A stretch of 59,518 nucleotides of DNA from an uncultured SAR86 cluster bacterium. Its GTDB lineage: Bacteria; Pseudomonadota; Gammaproteobacteria; Magnimaribacterales; D2472. The translations under genes were made by a program, and so were the position numbers. The notes beneath the pieces were generated by a model. The model worked only from the letters and a program-made list of their open reading frames with translations. It had not been told where the DNA came from and searched no databases. Below are positions 2,706 through 31,265 of this stretch, piece after piece (position 1 is the first letter of the stretch; each line of letters begins with the position of its first letter). The stretch spans positions 1 to 59,518 of the forward strand of contig CACMVA010000001.1 in NCBI GenBank assembly GCA_902617045.1, in the 5' to 3' direction.

Positions 2706-4526
2706 CTAGTCGTCATTTATTGCTGATAAAGATGCCAAAGCAATTCCTAGATTACCAAGGATTGAGACATAAGCTTGAGCTGCTAATCTTCTCGGAGCAG
2801 ATTCATCTAGCGCCCTTGGTACAAAAATTATTGAACCAGGATAAATTTGCATTTCGCTCTTGGGGCGACTCTCAAAAATATTTCTTTTTGATCTGTAAAG
2901 TTGTGACTCTCCATTTGGATGAAGAACATATATTGATTCGTCGGCTGCAAACTTTTTATAGCCTCCCGATTTATCAACAAAATATTCAACTCCTTGATTC
3001 TCAGAAAACATTACAGCTCCCTCAGAAGAAATCTCACCATATACATAAACCACATTATTCATTTCTGGAACAAATAGCTCATCTCCTTCTTTGACGCTAT
3101 AACGATCAATGGTTGAGTCATTAAGTAAGTCTATAACAATTCTTCCGTTTGGCTCTGTATTTTTTAATTCTTCTGTTAGTTTTACAATTGGAGCCAAATC
3201 AAAATTCCCACCTATATTTTGTTGACTTACAGCAATAATATTATCCAAAAATTCTTGATATAAAATTTCTTTAGATAACTCGTTTACAGCTTTTGCGTCC
3301 TCATTTAAATAAACTGCACCAAACTGATAAGCATTCTCCGTATAACCACCAGCTTTTTTTATCAAGTCGTTAATTGTATCCCCAGCAGCCATTGTATAAG
3401 TACCCGGCTTGAGAACAGCACCTGAAATTTTAGCTTGCCTATATGGATATTCTCTAAAGTAAACATAGTCTCCGTCTTCAACATTAATTGCTTCAAAATA
3501 ACTGTCATTTGGAACTGGTATGGTTTTTAATGCTCCATCTTGCAGTCTTTCAAGAGAAATATTTTCTCGGTCAGCATTTCGGGTAATGCCATTGGCATAA
3601 TTAATAATACTAGAAAGTTTTTGACCATCTATAGTTTCATACATAGCAGGTCTGTTTATTGCACCATCAATAGTAACAATGTTTTTAACTGCCTCAACAA
3701 ATATAACATCTCCAGATCTGAGTCGTTTTTTGAGGCTGTATTTTCCTTCGATTAGCAAATCATAAATATCCAATGTTTCAATAATAATATCGTCTCTTAT
3801 GAGATTGATTTCCCTCAAGGATCCAAACTTACTTATACCACCAGCAGCAGACAAAGCATGTAAGATATTAGAGTTACCAGTTAAGGTATAGATTCCTGGA
3901 TTTTCTGCATTTCCAGTGACAATTATATTCACATCTCTTATTTCGGTAAGACTAATGAATGCTTCATTACCTATAAGTGCTGAATTAACCTTAGATTTAA
4001 TTAGCTGCGAGGCATCATTTAATGATAATCCAGCAATAATTACCTTTCCTATATTTGGCATACTTATTGACCCATCAGAGTTTATTGGGAGTTCTTCAAT
4101 ATATTCGTCTGGCCCAACCAATTGAACTTCTAAAACATCTCCAACATCAAGCATATACCCAGAATCAGGATTAGGTTCATTAATTGGCATAAATGAAGTT
4201 TGAAATGTATTAAAAAAATCTGATCCATAAAGTTTCAAATCCTTGCTGATTTCAACTGACTCATCAGAATCTAATCTTCTCTCAAGTTCTAATAGATCTG
4301 CTTCTAATCTATTTTTTAATTTCAAAAAAGTTTCAGCTTTTGTTAATTTTGACGAGTAGATATATGGGCTATATTTTTCAGCGGTTCCATCAAGTTTTCG
4401 CATATTATTTTCTTGAATGTCTTTCCTTATATCATCAGGCAAACTTTCAAGAAACTCAGTATCTAATTCTTGTGATTTAACAGAAACTGTCACTAGCAAC
4501 AATAATACAATCTTTAAAATTTTCAT
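2706..4526 (-). CDS. Wza-like polysaccharide export protein with multiple SLBB domains
   Basis: The 606-aa protein starts with a signal peptide (~1-18). A charged helical region (~30-95) is followed by a Poly_export domain (~123-195: GYMLDVGDVLEV...INSDGSISMPNIGKV). About four SLBB repeats come next, recognisable by NPGIYTL, RPAMYET, KPGTYTM and the ISSEGAV segment. The C-terminus has a hydrophobic/amphipathic helix (YVSILGNLGIALASL), which could form the outer-membrane helical barrel as in Wza. Unlike E. coli Wza, no lipobox cysteine is visible at the signal-peptide end. It lies 47 nt after pheT and directly before the YjbH-like gene. Role: outer-membrane channel for capsule, O-antigen or exopolysaccharide. 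Confidence 0.88.
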   Translation of the reverse strand: MKILKIVLLLLVTVSVKSQELDTEFLESLPDDIRKDIQENNMRKLDGTAEKYSPYIYSSKLTKAETFLKLKNRLEADLLELERRLDSDESVEISKDLKLYGSDFFNTFQTSFMPINEPNPDSGYMLDVGDVLEVQLVGPDEYIEELPINSDGSISMPNIGKVIIAGLSLNDASQLIKSKVNSALIGNEAFISLTEIRDVNIIVTGNAENPGIYTLTGNSNILHALSAAGGISKFGSLREINLIRDDIIIETLDIYDLLIEGKYSLKKRLRSGDVIFVEAVKNIVTIDGAINRPAMYETIDGQKLSSIINYANGITRNADRENISLERLQDGALKTIPVPNDSYFEAINVEDGDYVYFREYPYRQAKISGAVLKPGTYTMAAGDTINDLIKKAGGYTENAYQFGAVYLNEDAKAVNELSKEILYQEFLDNIIAVSQQNIGGNFDLAPIVKLTEELKNTEPNGRIVIDLLNDSTIDRYSVKEGDELFVPEMNNVVYVYGEISSEGAVMFSENQGVEYFVDKSGGYKKFAADESIYVLHPNGESQLYRSKRNIFESRPKSEMQIYPGSIIFVPRALDESAPRRLAAQAYVSILGNLGIALASLSAINDD

Positions 4527-4573
4527 AATCTTTTTAACTCACCAAAATTTTTAACCCACATAGGAAGTATGAT

Positions 4574-6484
4574 TTAATTTAAACCAGGTATAGTAATACC
4601 ATCAATCTCCTCAATATGTTTTATTATAACATCTATTATATTGTTTACCTGCGTTTCTGTGATTGTAGAATCTGATGATTGAAAAACAAATCTAAAGCCA
4701 ATTTTAATTTCGGCATTTTTTTCATTATTAAAATAATCAAATATAAATACTTCTTTTAAAAGATCGTGTTTAAATTCTAAAATGTACTTCTTAAACTTAT
4801 CTAATTCTGTGAAATCTTTTACTGAAAAAGATAAGTCTCTTATAGAGTATGGTAAATCAGAAATAGGAGAGTATTCTATGAAACTTTCAGGTGGCTTAGA
4901 TATCTCTGAATAACTTAGAACATCAGTTGAAAAATTTGATATATCAACTTCGCAACTAATAATTTCATTTTTTACTTTAGTATTTAATGAATCTCGACTT
5001 AATACCTTAAATTCAAAATTTTCACTTGGTAAAGACTCTCTAAAAAGCGAATCAAGATACTTTTTGCTAATTTTTTTTGAAAAGTCTCTATAATTATGCC
5101 CAGCTCTTCCACTTGCAATGACTGCAAGCTTTCTTGATACATTAACTTTGTTATCTTTGATGTTGTAGATATCCGATATTTCAAATAATTTAATTGAATC
5201 TTTTTGTCTTCTCTCATTGAAAAGAAGGTTTTCCAATAATGATTGAGTTAAATTTGATCTTAGAAACTTTTTATTAGAATCTAACGGATTATCAACACAA
5301 ATAGAATTGCTTGAACCAGTTCCTACAAAAGGTGAATTAATTACTTCATAAAAACCGTGATCTAATAAAAAAAACCTCAACTTATTCTCAATATCATAAA
5401 TATTTGAAAGTTTTGCTTTAGGGATATTTATTTCATTCCTTTCAATATTGTCATATCCAATAACTCTTGCAATCTCCTCAGCTAAATCATTTTGAGTTTC
5501 GATATCACTTCTATATGACGGAACTTCTATATTTTCATCATTTACTATAAAGCCTAATTTAGATAAATAAGTTAAATATTCATTTTGGCTAATATTGGTA
5601 CCTATTATTTGATTAATCACATTAGTGTTAACAGGAATTTTTGTAACATTATTTTTTTTATATTTATATGTGATTAAAGACACATCTTTTATATTTGTGT
5701 GTTCTTCAACAATTTTTATAAATCTTCTAATTGTTTTCTCTTGGCATTCTGGATCAACAAATCTTTCAAACTTATATGATGCCTCAGATTGAATATCGTA
5801 CTTAACAGACTTACCTATTATTGCCTCGGGTTTAAAAAAAGCACATTCAACAAGGACTGTCTTTGTATCTATGGAACATGATGTTTCTTTTCCTCCAACA
5901 ACTCCAGCTAAATTTATTACCTTATCGTTTAACAAGAACACATGATTTTTGTCGGATAGATTAATTTTTTTTTCAAGTAATGTTTCAAATTCTTGATTAG
6001 CATGTAATTCTTTAAATACTATTTTTCCATCTATCTTATTAGCATCATAACAATGAGTTGGTTGTCCATTTTCATATGAAACATAGTTAGAAATATCTGT
6101 GAAGAAATTATTTTTATTTAAATTAAGATCTTTAAAATAATCATTCAAATAATCTTTGTATTTATTGGGGATGTTCTCTATTTCTAATTTAAGAAATGAG
6201 ATTTGAGGACAAATATCTTGTGATAAATTTTCAAAATCGATTTCTAATTTATTTAACTTATCATTATAGATTTCTTGGTTTGTATTAACATTGTAAAAAA
6301 CTGATAAATCTCTTAAAAGACCATTTATTGAGAGGCAGTCACCTCTATTTGGAGTGAATTCCATATTAAAGATATTTTCTTCAATCTCATGTTCATGCCC
6401 TAATTGAAACAAGCAGTCAGAAATCTCCTCTATTGATGGGTTTTCATTAATATATTCTACTAAGTGCCTGTATGCTATTTTCAT
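4574..6484 (-). CDS. pheT: Phenylalanine-tRNA ligase beta subunit, lacking the N-terminal OB-fold
   Basis: At 636 aa it is far shorter than the usual ~790-800. Residues 1-35 match the B1 start (HLVEYINENPSIEEISDCLFQLGHE). The sequence then jumps straight to the second part of B1 (MEFTPNRGDCLSINGLLRDL, ~41-60). The EMAP-II-like tRNA-binding B2 domain (~110 residues) normally inserted there is absent. B3/B4 editing region (~85-215), B5 (~285-345), catalytic-like core and C-terminal FDX-ACB anticodon domain (~540-636, ISDLPYSIRDLSFSV) are all present. ATG overlaps the pheS stop as ATGA. Function: Phe-tRNA synthesis and editing as (alpha-beta)2. The identity is certain; the domain loss is visible and not a frameshift. 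Confidence 0.95.
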   Translation of the reverse strand: MKIAYRHLVEYINENPSIEEISDCLFQLGHEHEIEENIFNMEFTPNRGDCLSINGLLRDLSVFYNVNTNQEIYNDKLNKLEIDFENLSQDICPQISFLKLEIENIPNKYKDYLNDYFKDLNLNKNNFFTDISNYVSYENGQPTHCYDANKIDGKIVFKELHANQEFETLLEKKINLSDKNHVFLLNDKVINLAGVVGGKETSCSIDTKTVLVECAFFKPEAIIGKSVKYDIQSEASYKFERFVDPECQEKTIRRFIKIVEEHTNIKDVSLITYKYKKNNVTKIPVNTNVINQIIGTNISQNEYLTYLSKLGFIVNDENIEVPSYRSDIETQNDLAEEIARVIGYDNIERNEINIPKAKLSNIYDIENKLRFFLLDHGFYEVINSPFVGTGSSNSICVDNPLDSNKKFLRSNLTQSLLENLLFNERRQKDSIKLFEISDIYNIKDNKVNVSRKLAVIASGRAGHNYRDFSKKISKKYLDSLFRESLPSENFEFKVLSRDSLNTKVKNEIISCEVDISNFSTDVLSYSEISKPPESFIEYSPISDLPYSIRDLSFSVKDFTELDKFKKYILEFKHDLLKEVFIFDYFNNEKNAEIKIGFRFVFQSSDSTITETQVNNIIDVIIKHIEEIDGITIPGLN

Positions 6485-7206
6485 TTAAATTGACTCAGGA
6501 AATCTAGATTAGATTTATAAAAATCTCTTATATCTTTTACTCCATGTTTCAACATAGCTATTCTTTCAATACCCAATCCAAATGCCAAGCCAGAGTAGGA
6601 ATTCGAATCAATATTGCAATTCTCCAATACTACAGGATTTACTAAACCACAACCAAGAATTTCGAGCCACTTTCCCTCACTGGACAAAATATCAACTTCA
6701 GCTGATGGTTCTGTAAATGGAAAATAACTAGGTCTGAATCTTAATTCAATATCTTCACCAAATAACGAGTAAACAATTTTATATATCAAATCTTTTAAAT
6801 GAGCAAAGCTAATATTTTTATCTACTAAAATTCCCTCGATTTGATGAAACATTGGTAAATGAGTTGCATCATCATCTTTTCTGTAAACTTTACCACCAGA
6901 AATAAAAGCTAATGGTGGTCTTTTTTCAAGCATTCCTCTTATTTGAACTGGTGAGGTGTGTGTCCTTAACAAATTTGATTTGTTCTCTACATAAAAGGTG
7001 TCATGCATCTGTCTTGCAGGATGTGTTTTTTTAATATTAAGCATGTCAAAATTAAACTTTTCAGTCTCAATTTCAGGGCCATCTATAATTTCAAAGCCAA
7101 AGGAAACTAATAGATTCATTATTGAATCTTTTAAATGGTTTATAGGATGAATTGAACCCCTGTCTTTGATAATCTTTGGAGCTGAAATGTCTTTATTAGA
7201 TGACAT
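6481..7206 (-). CDS. pheS: Phenylalanine-tRNA ligase alpha subunit, lacking the N-terminal coiled coil
   Basis: This is a 241-aa class II synthetase catalytic subunit; typical bacterial PheS is ~330-350 aa. The protein begins about 14 residues before the conserved DRGSIHP segment, so the ~85-residue N-terminal helical coiled coil that contacts tRNA-Phe is missing. Catalytic motifs are intact: HPARQMHDTF, RTHTSPVQIR, MFHQIEG (motif 2), RFRPSYFPFTEPSAEV and FGLGIERIAML (motif 3). Only 14 nt separate the ATG from the rplT stop, so there is no room for a lost N-terminal exon or frameshifted remnant. No strong Shine-Dalgarno is visible. It is translationally coupled to pheT (ATGA overlap). Confidence 0.95.
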   Translation of the reverse strand: MSSNKDISAPKIIKDRGSIHPINHLKDSIMNLLVSFGFEIIDGPEIETEKFNFDMLNIKKTHPARQMHDTFYVENKSNLLRTHTSPVQIRGMLEKRPPLAFISGGKVYRKDDDATHLPMFHQIEGILVDKNISFAHLKDLIYKIVYSLFGEDIELRFRPSYFPFTEPSAEVDILSSEGKWLEILGCGLVNPVVLENCNIDSNSYSGLAFGLGIERIAMLKHGVKDIRDFYKSNLDFLSQFK

Positions 7207-7220
7207 TATTAGGGAACATT

Positions 7221-7568
7221 TTAGCTAGTAGCAGCTTTTACGATTTTTTCAAATGTTGTGCTATCTGAAACAGCAATATCAGATAAAATCTTCCTATCAA
7301 GAGTGATATTTTTTTTTGACATTGAGTTGATTAAAGTTGAATAAGAAACACCTAGTTCTCTTGCTCCAGCATTAATTCTTGCGATCCATAAAGCCCTAAA
7401 AGTCCTTTTTCTATTTTTTCGGTCTCTAAATGCGTACTGTAAAGATTTGATATTTGATTGTTTGGCAGTTTTGTATAATCTACTCCTAGCACCATAGTGT
7501 CCCTTAGTGGAATCCAAAACTTTCTTATGTTTAGCTTTTGCTGTTACAGACTTAGTGGTTCTTGGCAT
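7221..7568 (-). CDS. rplT: 50S ribosomal protein L20
   Basis: The 115-aa basic protein has the L20 signature: KHKKVLDSTKGHYGARSRLYKTAKQ, RDRKNRKRTFRALWIARINAGAR and LGVSYSTLI. It binds 23S rRNA early in 50S assembly. It is the third gene of infC-rpmI-rplT, 6 nt after rpmI and 14 nt before pheS. In E. coli, L20 represses translation of rpmI-rplT through a structured mRNA site. I did not identify such a pseudoknot here. Length and start are normal. Confidence 0.98.
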   Translation of the reverse strand: MPRTTKSVTAKAKHKKVLDSTKGHYGARSRLYKTAKQSNIKSLQYAFRDRKNRKRTFRALWIARINAGARELGVSYSTLINSMSKKNITLDRKILSDIAVSDSTTFEKIVKAATS

Positions 7569-7574
7569 AATTAC

Positions 7575-7769
7575 TTATCTTTTTATTAAGTTTGAAGCCA
7601 TTTTCAAGACAGTTCCTGATAATTTATTGAGGCCTCTATTGTGTCTTTTTCTTTTTGTAGACTGCTTAGTAAGGATATGATTTCTATTAGCGCTTCTGCT
7701 TTTAACAGAAGAACCAGTTTTCTTGAAACGTTTTGCAGCTCCAGAATGTGTTTTTAATTTATATCCCAT
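7575..7769 (-). CDS. rpmI: 50S ribosomal protein L35
   Basis: The 64-aa very basic protein has the L35 pattern: [20 protein letters not shown] at the N-terminus, [20 protein letters not shown] in the middle and a short C-terminal helix. It is a structural component of the large subunit. It lies between infC (14 nt upstream) and rplT (6 nt downstream), the standard order of the IF3 operon. Length is normal. Confidence 0.98.
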
Positions 7770-7783
7770 AACAATATCTTCAA

Positions 7784-8314
7784 CTAATTTTTTTTCTTTA
7801 AAGGTGATAAAACCATTAATAATTGCCTACCTTCCAACGAAGGCTCTTGATCTACTTGAGCTATATCAGCGAGCTCATCTTTTAACTTACTTAAAAGATT
7901 TAGACCCATGTCACTATTAAGTATTTCTCTTCCTCTAAAACGGACGCTTATTTTAGTCTTATCTCCATCAAGAATAAAGCTTTTAATCTTCTTTAATTTG
8001 ATATTATAGTCGCCTACATCAGTTGTTGGTCTAAATTTAATCTCTTTTACAGTGTTTCTTTTAATTTTAACTTTTGAGGATGAATGACTCTTTTTTTTAT
8101 CAAAAAGATGTTTACCATAGTCTAAAAGCTTACAAACAACAGGATTTGAATTAGAGGGAGAAACTTGAACTAAATCCAAAGAAGCTTTATTTGCTGCCTC
8201 TAGAGCATCTTCAATTGAAACAATCCCCTTCTTTTTTCCATTATTGTCTATCAGCATTACTTCATTAGACTTAATCATCTGATTAATAGGAATATTTTTT
8301 TTTGTACTATTAAT
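7784..8314 (-). CDS. infC: Translation initiation factor IF-3, probable AUU start
   Basis: IF3 binds the 30S subunit and discriminates against wrong start codons. The N-terminal domain ([42 protein letters not shown]) and C-terminal domain ([28 protein letters not shown]) are clear. The first ATG (8278) would cut off the conserved segment before NEVML. In the same frame 12 codons upstream, ATT at 8312-8314 gives [19 protein letters not shown], matching the family start, and the protein becomes 176 aa. An AAAAGG ribosome site lies 8 nt before the ATT, and an in-frame TAA (8327-8329) excludes a longer form. E. coli infC also uses AUU, allowing IF3 to autorepress. thrS, the usual upstream partner, is absent. 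Confidence 0.9.
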
Positions 8315-8322
8315 GATTAATA

Positions 8323-8328
8323 CCTTTT
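8323..8328 (-). promoter_or_regulatory. Shine-Dalgarno of infC that fixes an AUU start
   Basis: AAAAGG on the minus strand is separated by 8 nt (8315-8322) from ATT at 8312-8314. No ATG, GTG or TTG lies at suitable spacing, and an in-frame stop overlaps the site. The placement therefore supports AUU initiation. Confidence 0.7.
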
Positions 8329-8423
8329 AGAGTAAGTTGAAAGAAAAAAACATTTATAGGATTGCTAATGACAAGATCGCACTATATGAGAACAAGATAA
8401 ATTTTTCATAAAATTAGTTGGAT

Positions 8424-8452
8424 TTTATACTAATATTTAAAATTCGCAAATA
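8424..8452 (-). promoter_or_regulatory. Candidate promoter of the infC-rpmI-rplT-pheST operon
   Basis: The 139-bp spacer between the PdxH-like gene and infC contains no ORF. On the minus strand it holds TATTTG (8447-8452), 17 nt and TATAAA (8424-8429), giving a leader of roughly 100 nt before the AUU start. It was judged by eye. The AT richness makes chance matches likely, but this is the only sizeable gap before the operon. Confidence 0.35.
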
Positions 8453-8453
8453 C

Positions 8454-9050
8454 TTAAGCTTGAAGAAAATCTTTAATCCATTCGCCATTTTTTAATTCGT
8501 AAAACTCTCTCTTATTAAGTCTGGATTCATGTCCTTCCCAGAATTCAAAGTAATATGGAGTAAATGAAAATCCTCCCCAATAATCAGGACACTTAGTTAA
8601 GTCATTAGTCTTTAAAGAATATTCATACTTCTTTTGAAATTCTTCATATGAATCTATAGTTTTTGATTGTTCGGAACAAATTGCCAAGGCATTTTTTTTT
8701 GAATCTCTGCCGGCAAAATACATCTGGTTATACTCTTTGCTAGTCTTAGTAATTAATGCTTTCATCCTAATCTGTGTATTTGTATTACACCAATAAATTA
8801 GAGCTGTTATTTGTTTATGAGAATCAAACTCCATTGACTTTGGAGATTTATAATTAGAAAAGAAAATAAATTCATTATTGTTGACAAATTTGAGATTAAC
8901 ATATCTTGAGTTAACCTCTTGTTTTTTTGATGAATATGAGGAAATACTTATAGCTTCAATATTTTTTTGTTTCGCTTTAAATGCTTCATCATATTTGTCT
9001 TTTAGAATTAGATAAGGAGTTTCTTGTATTAAATTATCGAAAGTGATCAT
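8454..9050 (-). CDS. Pyridoxamine 5'-phosphate oxidase-like flavoprotein (PdxH family)
   Basis: The 198-aa protein follows the PNPOx layout: SRYVNLKFV (FMN-binding strand), NYKSPKSMEFDSHKQITALIYW (matching the SPKA...W region), QIRMKALITK, YFAGRDSKKNALAICSEQS, YWGGFSFTPYYFEFWEGHESRLNKREFY and a C-terminal W-x-K. In PdxH the end is RLHDR...RLAP. Here it is RLNKR...DFLQA, so the match is good but divergent. Reaction if canonical: FMN-dependent oxidation of PNP or PMP to PLP. It starts 4 nt after the putative oxygenase gene, so the two form a pair. It could also be a relative with another substrate. Confidence 0.7.
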   Translation of the reverse strand: MITFDNLIQETPYLILKDKYDEAFKAKQKNIEAISISSYSSKKQEVNSRYVNLKFVNNNEFIFFSNYKSPKSMEFDSHKQITALIYWCNTNTQIRMKALITKTSKEYNQMYFAGRDSKKNALAICSEQSKTIDSYEEFQKKYEYSLKTNDLTKCPDYWGGFSFTPYYFEFWEGHESRLNKREFYELKNGEWIKDFLQA

Positions 9051-30129: not shown

Positions 30130-31265
30130 TTGATTACGCTGCTTGGTATATTTACAACTCGATCATTAAACCATTCTGAATTTGTCAAATCTCCACATTG
30201 AGCATTTTCAAACATTGGAAGCTTGTGCATCATTATCCATATTGGACGTGTCATTACATTACTTGTATTAGTTTCTTTTAAAAATTTATCTCGCTGTTTT
30301 TTATCTTTAAAAAGAAGTGTATTTAACCAATAATTAGATTTGCTAAGTTTTGGTTCTTTAAAAAAAGTGTATTCTTGAGTTTTGAAAAATTCTTCGTAAG
30401 TTTTTGCAAGCTTTCGCTTGTTTTTAAGAAAATAATTTAGATTTTCAAGCTGCGCAACAAGTAAAGCTGCGTTTATATTTGGCATCCGATAATTGTAACC
30501 TACCATATCATGATTAAAATCCCACTTATGTGGCACTTTCGCAGTTGTGGTTAAGTGTTTTGCCTTTTTTGCAAGAACCTTATCATTTGTAACAATACAT
30601 CCACCACCGCCTGATGTAATAATTTTATTACCATTAAAACTCATCACTCCTAATTGACCAAAAGTTCCAGTATGTTTATCTTTATATTTACTACCAACAC
30701 TCTCAGCAGCATCTTCAATAACAAATATATAATGCTCGTCACAAATTTGTTTTATCTCATCTATTTTGCATGGATGCCCAAAAGTGTGCATCGGAACACA
30801 TGCTTTAATTACTTTACCAGTAATATTGTTTATGCATTGTTTATTTTTAATAGTTGTATTTTCTTTAAGAAAAACTTTCAATGCGGCCGGTGATAAACCC
30901 ATTGTATCTTTGTCAACGTCAATGAATATGGGATGTCCGCCACAATATCTAATTGCATTGCAAGTAGCAACAAAGGTTAAAGATTGAGTTATAACTTCAT
31001 CATTTTGATTTACGTTTGCAAGCAAGAGTGATACGTGAAGTGCTGAGGTTCCATTGCTGGTTGCAACAGCAAATTTCGCACCTGCATATTTTGCAATTTT
31101 TTCTTCAAATACATCAACATATTTTCCAATTGATGAAACAAAACTTGAATCAATACATTCTTTGACATATTTATTTTCATTTCCACAAAATTTTGGTTCA
31201 TGTAAAGGAATGAAATCTTTAGATTTATATATTTCTTGAATGAAATTTATAACATCTTTAAACAT
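30126..31265 (-). CDS. legC: DegT/DnrJ/EryC1 PLP aminotransferase (LegC-like)
   Basis: The 379-aa fold-type I aminotransferase has FIPLHEPKFCGNENKYVKECIDSSFVSSIG, ATSNGTSALHVSLLLANV, EVITQSLTFVATCNAI, VIEDAAESVGSKYKDKHTGTFG and SFNGNKIITSGGGGCIVTND. The Lys of FNGNKIIT is the predicted PLP-binding residue. It aminates a 4-keto-6-deoxy-HexNAc nucleotide at C4 using glutamate. Start overlaps the dehydratase stop (TAATG), giving the classical dehydratase-aminotransferase-acetyltransferase order. Confidence 0.9.
   Translation of the reverse strand: MFKDVINFIQEIYKSKDFIPLHEPKFCGNENKYVKECIDSSFVSSIGKYVDVFEEKIAKYAGAKFAVATSNGTSALHVSLLLANVNQNDEVITQSLTFVATCNAIRYCGGHPIFIDVDKDTMGLSPAALKVFLKENTTIKNKQCINNITGKVIKACVPMHTFGHPCKIDEIKQICDEHYIFVIEDAAESVGSKYKDKHTGTFGQLGVMSFNGNKIITSGGGGCIVTNDKVLAKKAKHLTTTAKVPHKWDFNHDMVGYNYRMPNINAALLVAQLENLNYFLKNKRKLAKTYEEFFKTQEYTFFKEPKLSKSNYWLNTLLFKDKKQRDKFLKETNTSNVMTRPIWIMMHKLPMFENAQCGDLTNSEWFNDRVVNIPSSVIK

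Follow-up and report, generated by a model that had tools for sequence, protein, structure and literature searches.

A minimal phenylalanyl-tRNA synthetase without coiled coil and B2 domain in SAR86 bacteria, probably of one origin in two families

The contig CACMVA010000001.1 of an uncultured SAR86 cluster bacterium (assembly GCA_902617045.1), which was analysed over its whole 59,518 nucleotides and is referred to here as the window, encodes on its minus strand a phenylalanyl-tRNA synthetase (PheRS) that lacks both the N-terminal coiled coil (CC) of the alpha subunit and the B2 domain, an EMAP-II/oligonucleotide-binding (OB) fold, of the beta subunit. The genes, recognised from reading frames, Pfam domains and alignment, are pheS (6481..7206), coding for an alpha subunit of 241 amino acids, and pheT (4574..6484), coding for a beta subunit of 636. 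The enzyme itself is ordinary and essential; its minimal form is unusual. In our judgement it is quite probable that this sole PheRS found is a working (alpha-beta)2 enzyme which charges ordinary tRNA-Phe and still edits, and that the CC-less enzymes of two SAR86 families, termed f1 and f4 here, are of one origin and were either moved between the families or sorted.

The domain content was assessed with Pfam at E <= 0.001 and by alignment with the E. coli subunits. In PheS, the only domain is tRNA-synt_2d, the class II catalytic core (PF01409, residues 6-240, 6487..7191), which is complete and spans profile positions 3-246 of 246; the CC domain Phe_tRNA-synt_N (PF02912) is absent, and in local alignment residue 5 of the window PheS corresponds to residue 92 of E. 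coli PheS. PheT contains, in the bacterial order, the editing domain B3/B4 (B3_4, PF03483, residues 113-263, 5696..6148), recognised by Pfam and by its editing-pocket positions, B5 (PF03484, residues 283-344, 5453..5638), the catalytic-like module (CLM) B6/B7 (tRNA_synthFbeta, PF17759, residues 353-493, 5006..5428) and the anticodon-binding FDX-ACB domain (PF03147, residues 542-626, 4607..4861), with neither a tRNA_bind OB domain (PF01588) nor PF02912. The deletion of B2 is clean in the alignment, with the B1 halves fused as LGHEHEIEENIFNMEFTPNRGDC; the junction EIEENI (residues 33-38, 6371..6388) marks the site at which the B2 domain, about 110 residues long, sits in E. coli-type PheT. Local alignment of PheT begins at residue 33, opposite residue 152 of the E. 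coli protein, and the span between E. coli PheT columns 20 and 175 holds 36 residues in the window as opposed to 155 in E. coli. PheS scores 306.6 bits against TIGR00468, above the curated cut-off of 237.45; PheT scores 357.7 bits against TIGR00472, below the cut-off of 402.65, with the match beginning at profile position 156. Pfam and alignment thus bear out the preliminary description of this DNA in that both N-terminal RNA-binding modules are absent, and Pfam agrees with it that the catalytic, editing and FDX-ACB domains are kept.

The pair is genuine and, as far as found, single. The open frame of pheS comprises 247 codons, with just six upstream of the ATG, and the last base of rplT (7221) lies 14 nucleotides before pheS; therefore, no CC is hidden 5' of the gene. 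The architecture without CC and OB recurs across SAR86 genomes from single cells and metagenomes, in 29 f1 loci (including the window, and including L076, whose pheS frame is broken) and 13 f4 loci. A scan of genome contigs yielded 24 loci, 23 of them titled SAR86 or gammaproteobacterium and one Flavobacteriaceae; essentially the whole PheT is spanned in 22 of the 23, and the remaining one (L053) ends at a contig edge. The Flavobacteriaceae-titled contig (L043, JADHME010000003.1) also bears a SAR86-type minimal pheST and is probably mislabelled or misbinned. An assembly error or a hidden N-terminus was ruled out by the frame limits and this recurrence. In the window assembly, which is 87.5% complete, one PheS was found, PF02912 has no match anywhere and the single PF01588 match is the C-terminus of MetRS; neither a second pheST nor modules encoded in trans were found. 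PF02912 is present in 0 of 13 CC-less compared with 5 of 5 CC-bearing SAR86 genomes. At this completeness, none of the three findings that the preliminary description had named as speaking against it (a module encoded in trans, a second pheST, an assembly error) turned up. That a trans-acting factor provides the lost RNA binding has a precedent in the free-standing tRNA-binding OB proteins Trbp111 and Arc1p, as described in the available part of PMC11286949, and is very improbable here, given the domain matches of the window genome just listed.

Both genes are under purifying selection, with the two domains gone and the rest conserved: between the window and its nearest relative, the nonsynonymous (dN) and synonymous (dS) divergences are 0.012 and 0.325 for pheS and 0.049 and 0.311 for pheT. 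The low dN relative to dS supports the earlier view that this is not decay. Residues A294 and R301 of E. coli PheS have identical counterparts in 28 of 29 CC-less f1 rows (the other has a gap) and in 13/13 of f4, and E334 and H265 of PheT, the latter being the histidine of GQPxH in the editing pocket, in all 42 CC-less rows; the A356 position is alanine in 40/42 and the T354 position serine in 42/42. We take these six residues to be functional sites. In four genomes (G066, G092, G093, G127), frameshifts or stops interrupt pheS or pheT; these are likely sequencing or assembly errors.

The two modules were lost separately and in a definite order. Of 151 genomes sampled from the order, 126 gave a PheS match (122 above the family cut-off) and 124 a PheT match; 77 SAR86 pheST loci (76 fetched plus the window) from four families, f1 to f4, were read. 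OB is missing from every one of these 77 loci and CC from part of them only: 35 have a PheS N-terminus of CC length (15 in f1, 10 in f2, 10 in f3) and 42 do not (29 in f1, 13 in f4). Ahead of its HP motif, PheS has 4-34 residues in CC-less f1 (the value of 4 being the broken frame), 18-28 in f4 and 105-131 in the 35 others. The PheT span defined above holds 36 residues in the 29 CC-less f1 and 13 f4 loci, 36-37 in the 15 CC-bearing f1 loci, 46 in f2 (10 loci) and 41-45 in f3 (10 loci), compared with 154-159 in 17 OB-bearing genomes of the class, taken as Gammaproteobacteria. In a class sample of 134 genomes, 132 of them outside SAR86, PheT was matched in 129 outside SAR86, seven of which lack OB (G184, G186, G219, G224, G241, G248, G278); PheS was matched in 128, and in all of these, including the seven without OB, the match extends to profile position 12 or below once matches in two pieces are merged. 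CC loss was seen in these samples only where OB is also gone, and OB is often lost while CC is kept. Since OB is gone in all SAR86 loci and in seven families that keep CC, OB was lost first. The paired, coordinated loss proposed in the preliminary description is not supported by the relatives, many of which have lost OB alone. That both modules vanished simultaneously in one step of minimisation fits their joint absence in the window, but the intermediates that fill f2, f3, part of f1 and the seven other families contradict it, unless OB was lost anew in every one of them after the split, and we give it almost no credence.

The seven OB-less families outside SAR86 (L136-L142) have rounded genome sizes of 1.1-2.0 Mb and an intact PheS N-terminus, and the cut in their PheT falls at nearly the same point of B1. 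Genomes of at most 2.0 Mb make up 7/7 of the OB-less as opposed to 27/122 of the OB-bearing ones (Fisher p 5.4e-5, from hand counts and rounded sizes with kinship ignored). By parsimony, OB loss in the class takes six changes; a single OB-less clade is not rejected by the approximately unbiased test (p-AU 0.561), which was run without two long-branched OB-bearing rows, L152 and L154.

For the origin of the CC-less genes, we compared f1 without CC (M1; genera g1, g2, g3, g4 and g7), f1 with CC (P; g5, g6 and g8) and f4, which is without CC (F4). Trees of the PheS+PheT core were constructed with 41 and 102 rows, excluding the CC and OB columns. In the 41-row tree, M1 and F4 form one clade (100 in the Shimodaira-Hasegawa-like approximate likelihood ratio test, SH-aLRT) on a stem of 1.47 changes per column, and monophyly of f1 (M1+P) is rejected (p-AU 2.35e-32); the M1+F4 clade again reaches 100 with 102 rows. 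All SAR86 rows form one clade in the 41-row tree (99) but not in the 102-row tree. Mean identities between M1 and F4 are 69.7% for PheS and 44.4% for PheT, versus 51.8% and 25.1% between M1 and P. Besides CC itself, M1 and F4 have deletions in common that P, f2, f3 and most other groups in the alignment do not have, located near E. coli PheT 198-199, 439-443, 522-528, 603, 641-642 and 750-751 (open-frame numbering, one above protein numbering), as well as an altered FDX-ACB tail, seen also in the window, and a B1 junction of the LGHEHE type. The CC-less PheT of f1 has two further features: its CLM is shortened near the end, with some 26 residues that f4 retains missing from the terminal part of B7, and it carries about 12 extra residues before FDX-ACB, which are DVLSYSEISKPP in the window (residues 521-532, 4889-4924, minus strand).

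Other genes tell a different history. The RpoB tree, with 28 rows obtained from 28 of 30 genomes, unites f1 in one clade (100) with F4 outside and rejects a clade of all CC-less groups (p-AU 1.98e-5). Between M1 and F4, the mean identity is 63.3% for RpoB, 40.8% for infC and 64.2% for rplT, versus 78.7%, 66.8% and 66.4% between M1 and P. The joint tree of infC and rplT recovers f1 at 94 and f1+f4 at 99; thrS was dropped as a marker, being found in 38 of 126 loci. By the pheST tree and the common deletions, the CC-less PheRS of f1 and f4 is of one origin, in conflict with RpoB and the family codes. Convergent loss, with CC deleted separately in f1 and f4 on an OB-less background and no transfer, would agree with the separation of f1 and f4 by RpoB and family codes and with the small genomes of both groups, but the closer identity of PheS and PheT between M1 and F4, their several common deletions, junction type and C-terminal tail, and the rejection of f1 monophyly in the pheST tree make it improbable. 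The likeliest explanation would be horizontal exchange between SAR86 families, or else sorting of two old copies.

Regarding the source, core identities place M1 and F4 about equally distant from all other groups; therefore, pheST would come from a SAR86 branch that evolved fast or from one not sampled. Outside SAR86, a search of the phylum matched 282 of 299 genomes, and among the matches listed the frames are about 740-960 amino acids long except for those of the window, G396 (636) and G535 (640). Carriage by phage was also considered, and of the 66 stretches that matched the search pattern in a scan of viral contigs none encodes a relative. No downstream neighbours (frames of at least 100 amino acids within 4 kb) are common to 6 f4 and 10 f1 loci; the common ones all lie upstream.

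The tRNA was then considered as the partner of the enzyme. All 111 genomes of the order that were searched match the tRNA-Phe of the window genome at E <= 0.001, some partially, and 49 tRNA-Phe genes were read, namely 29 best-match loci, a sample that leans to identical ones, and 20 picked across the groups. In f1 outside the CC-bearing genera, 24 of 28 are identical to that of the window genome; four of the genomes concerned (G086, G116, G131, G147), in which no PheS was found, all have the identical tRNA-Phe, and among the f1 genomes seen to be CC-less the proportion is 20/24. The four others (G127, G113, G140 and G098, in the order of L204-L207) have a diverged tRNA-Phe that differs by 7-9 bases and has its 2-71 pair flipped, a type that occurs in 0 of 16 CC-bearing and 0 of 5 f4 genes. 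One of the five f4 genes is identical to that of the window genome and the others are 1-3 bases off; in f3 with CC one of seven is identical, and the remaining CC-bearing genes are 1-5 bases off. Position 60 of the tRNA-Phe string, in the T loop, is C in 25/28 of the f1 genes outside the CC-bearing genera and T in 19/21 of the others, and the same C is found in one CC-bearing f3 gene and one CC-less f4 gene. Three further f1 genomes (G070, G078, G107), in which no PheS was found, have a tRNA-Phe at 89% identity, resembling the diverged four in this respect. Co-evolution of tRNA-Phe with CC loss was rejected, as no base change tracks CC loss among the 49 genes. As far as these gene sequences tell, CC loss did not need an altered tRNA-Phe, and some CC-less lineages later have one.

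A PheT model built from 23 sequences has a mean predicted local distance difference test score (pLDDT) of 85.2 and a predicted template modelling score (pTM) of 0.63. It matches 22 bacterial-type PheT entries (VIA) with Z of 33.5-37.6 over 590-617 residues at a whole-chain root mean square deviation of 21.5-22.9 A, and the large deviation is read as the domains matching with their relative placement in the monomer model being off. The PheS model is poorer (pLDDT 73.1), with residues 1-18 under 50. The mean net charge of PheT is -15.8 and -13.8 in the minimal type, +17.1 in CC-bearing f1 and +21.3 in CC-bearing f3 (L086-L102, L126-L135).

We lean slightly towards a history in which the minimal proofreading tetramer arose once in SAR86 and spread between families as a pheS-pheT cassette that replaced the CC-bearing genes in place, with tRNA-Phe mostly unchanged. 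Several points weigh against this account. The net charge gives no sign of a simple compensation of the lost RNA binding by a basic surface, the minimal PheT being acidic, and some tRNA change in CC-less lineages is possible, given the diverged tRNA-Phe in 4 of 24 CC-less f1 genomes. In the 102-row tree, M1+F4 stands weakly (65) next to the long-branched outsiders L142 and L152 and not next to CC-bearing f1, and long-branch attraction may account for some of the tree signal, considering the long CC-less stem. The RpoB tree does not resolve M1 versus P, that is, whether the CC-less f1 genera form one clade. Moreover, an M1+F4 clade is not rejected by infC alone (p-AU 0.567) or by rplT alone (0.739), and because of this the conflict rests on RpoB, on infC and rplT jointly and on the family codes. 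These single-gene results, together with the PheS+PheT tree, would suit vertical inheritance, with the family split in error and f4 the true sister of the CC-less f1 genera; RpoB contradicts it by its rejection of that clade, by its full support for f1 and by the higher identity of M1 to P than to F4, and we consider such a history decidedly improbable.

In bacterial PheRS, one tRNA contacts all four subunits; CC takes part in tRNA binding with the catalytic module, and B8 binds the anticodon loop, as stated in the accessible part of PMC3275996. The same excerpt describes mitochondrial PheRS as a fusion of catalytic module and B8 that is fully active as a monomer (PMC3275996), and because of this the parts retained in SAR86 are enough in principle. 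The minimal pheST would have passed from one family to another and displaced the resident pheST at its locus; alternatively, two old copies would have been sorted differently. Ordinary tRNA-Phe may be charged with the catalytic core contacting the acceptor end and FDX-ACB the anticodon, while proofreading continues in B3/B4, and the tRNA contacts of CC and OB would simply be missing. By analogy, charging should be normal, tRNA binding weaker and editing perhaps less good. By its title, a 2006 work of Roy and Ibba is said to find that PheRS can dispense with an RNA-binding domain, which nevertheless contributes to editing. The domain meant there is B2, judging by the citation in PMC5370408, which in the part available also describes B2 as absent from many PheRS beta chains of the candidate phyla radiation (CPR). 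The question raised earlier of how tRNA-Phe is recognised is weakened because the loss of B2 is published for CPR bacteria, the 2006 title calls B2 dispensable and CC is not needed for activity in mitochondrial PheRS; in addition, most CC-less genomes read have a tRNA-Phe that matches that of CC-bearing relatives exactly or to within 1-3 bases, with four diverged.

Upstream of pheS on the minus strand lie rplT (L20, 7221..7568), its direct neighbour, rpmI (L35, 7575..7769) and infC (IF-3, 7784..8278). The gene order infC-rpmI-rplT-pheS-pheT is conserved and matches the E. coli operon, and pheS and pheT overlap by four nucleotides (atga). An Rfam scan of 4300-8800 gave no match. Elsewhere in the window, ARAGORN predicts a tRNA-Thr of 96 nucleotides at 30573-30668 (minus strand), and Rfam reports no tRNA in 30400-30800 at the gathering score; this is probably a false call, as the strand reads like normal coding DNA by eye.

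Bacterial PheRS without B2 has thus already been published, in the part of the literature seen; a CC-less bacterial PheS or a SAR86 PheRS was not found described in the open-licence literature, as partially surveyed. The interest of the present enzymes lies in a graded natural series of one tetrameric synthetase (with CC and OB, with CC only, with neither), the last two members of which serve nearly the same tRNA-Phe, in the order of the losses and in the conflict between the pheST and RpoB trees. This series lets the part of each tRNA-binding module in charging and editing be measured without engineered truncations, and it suggests that bacterial families can exchange an essential synthetase as long as the identity of the tRNA changes little.

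Compared with known systems, the window enzyme shares with the E. coli and Thermus-type (alpha-beta)2 PheRS (TIGR00468, TIGR00472) the operon order (E. coli), the core, B1, B3/B4, B5, the CLM and FDX-ACB, and differs in lacking CC and B2 and in a PheT below the TIGR00472 cut-off. The archaeal and eukaryotic cytosolic PheRS (3l4g, 8s8b), whose beta chains of 589 amino acids were aligned with the PheT model (VIA), are presumably tetramers with a beta chain likewise free of the EMAP-II/OB insert, but with another alpha N-terminus and without a C-terminal FDX-ACB on beta, as we assume. The B2-removed PheRS of Roy and Ibba, as far as the title tells, represents a single loss, whereas the window enzyme is natural and has lost CC too. 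In CPR bacteria, which are distant, B2 is likewise missing from a bacterial-type beta subunit, and CC is not mentioned (PMC5370408, in part). The human mitochondrial PheRS resembles the window enzyme in that catalytic core and FDX-ACB suffice without other bacterial domains, according to the excerpted PMC3275996, but it is a monomer of one fused chain without editing, whereas the window encodes two genes with B3/B4.

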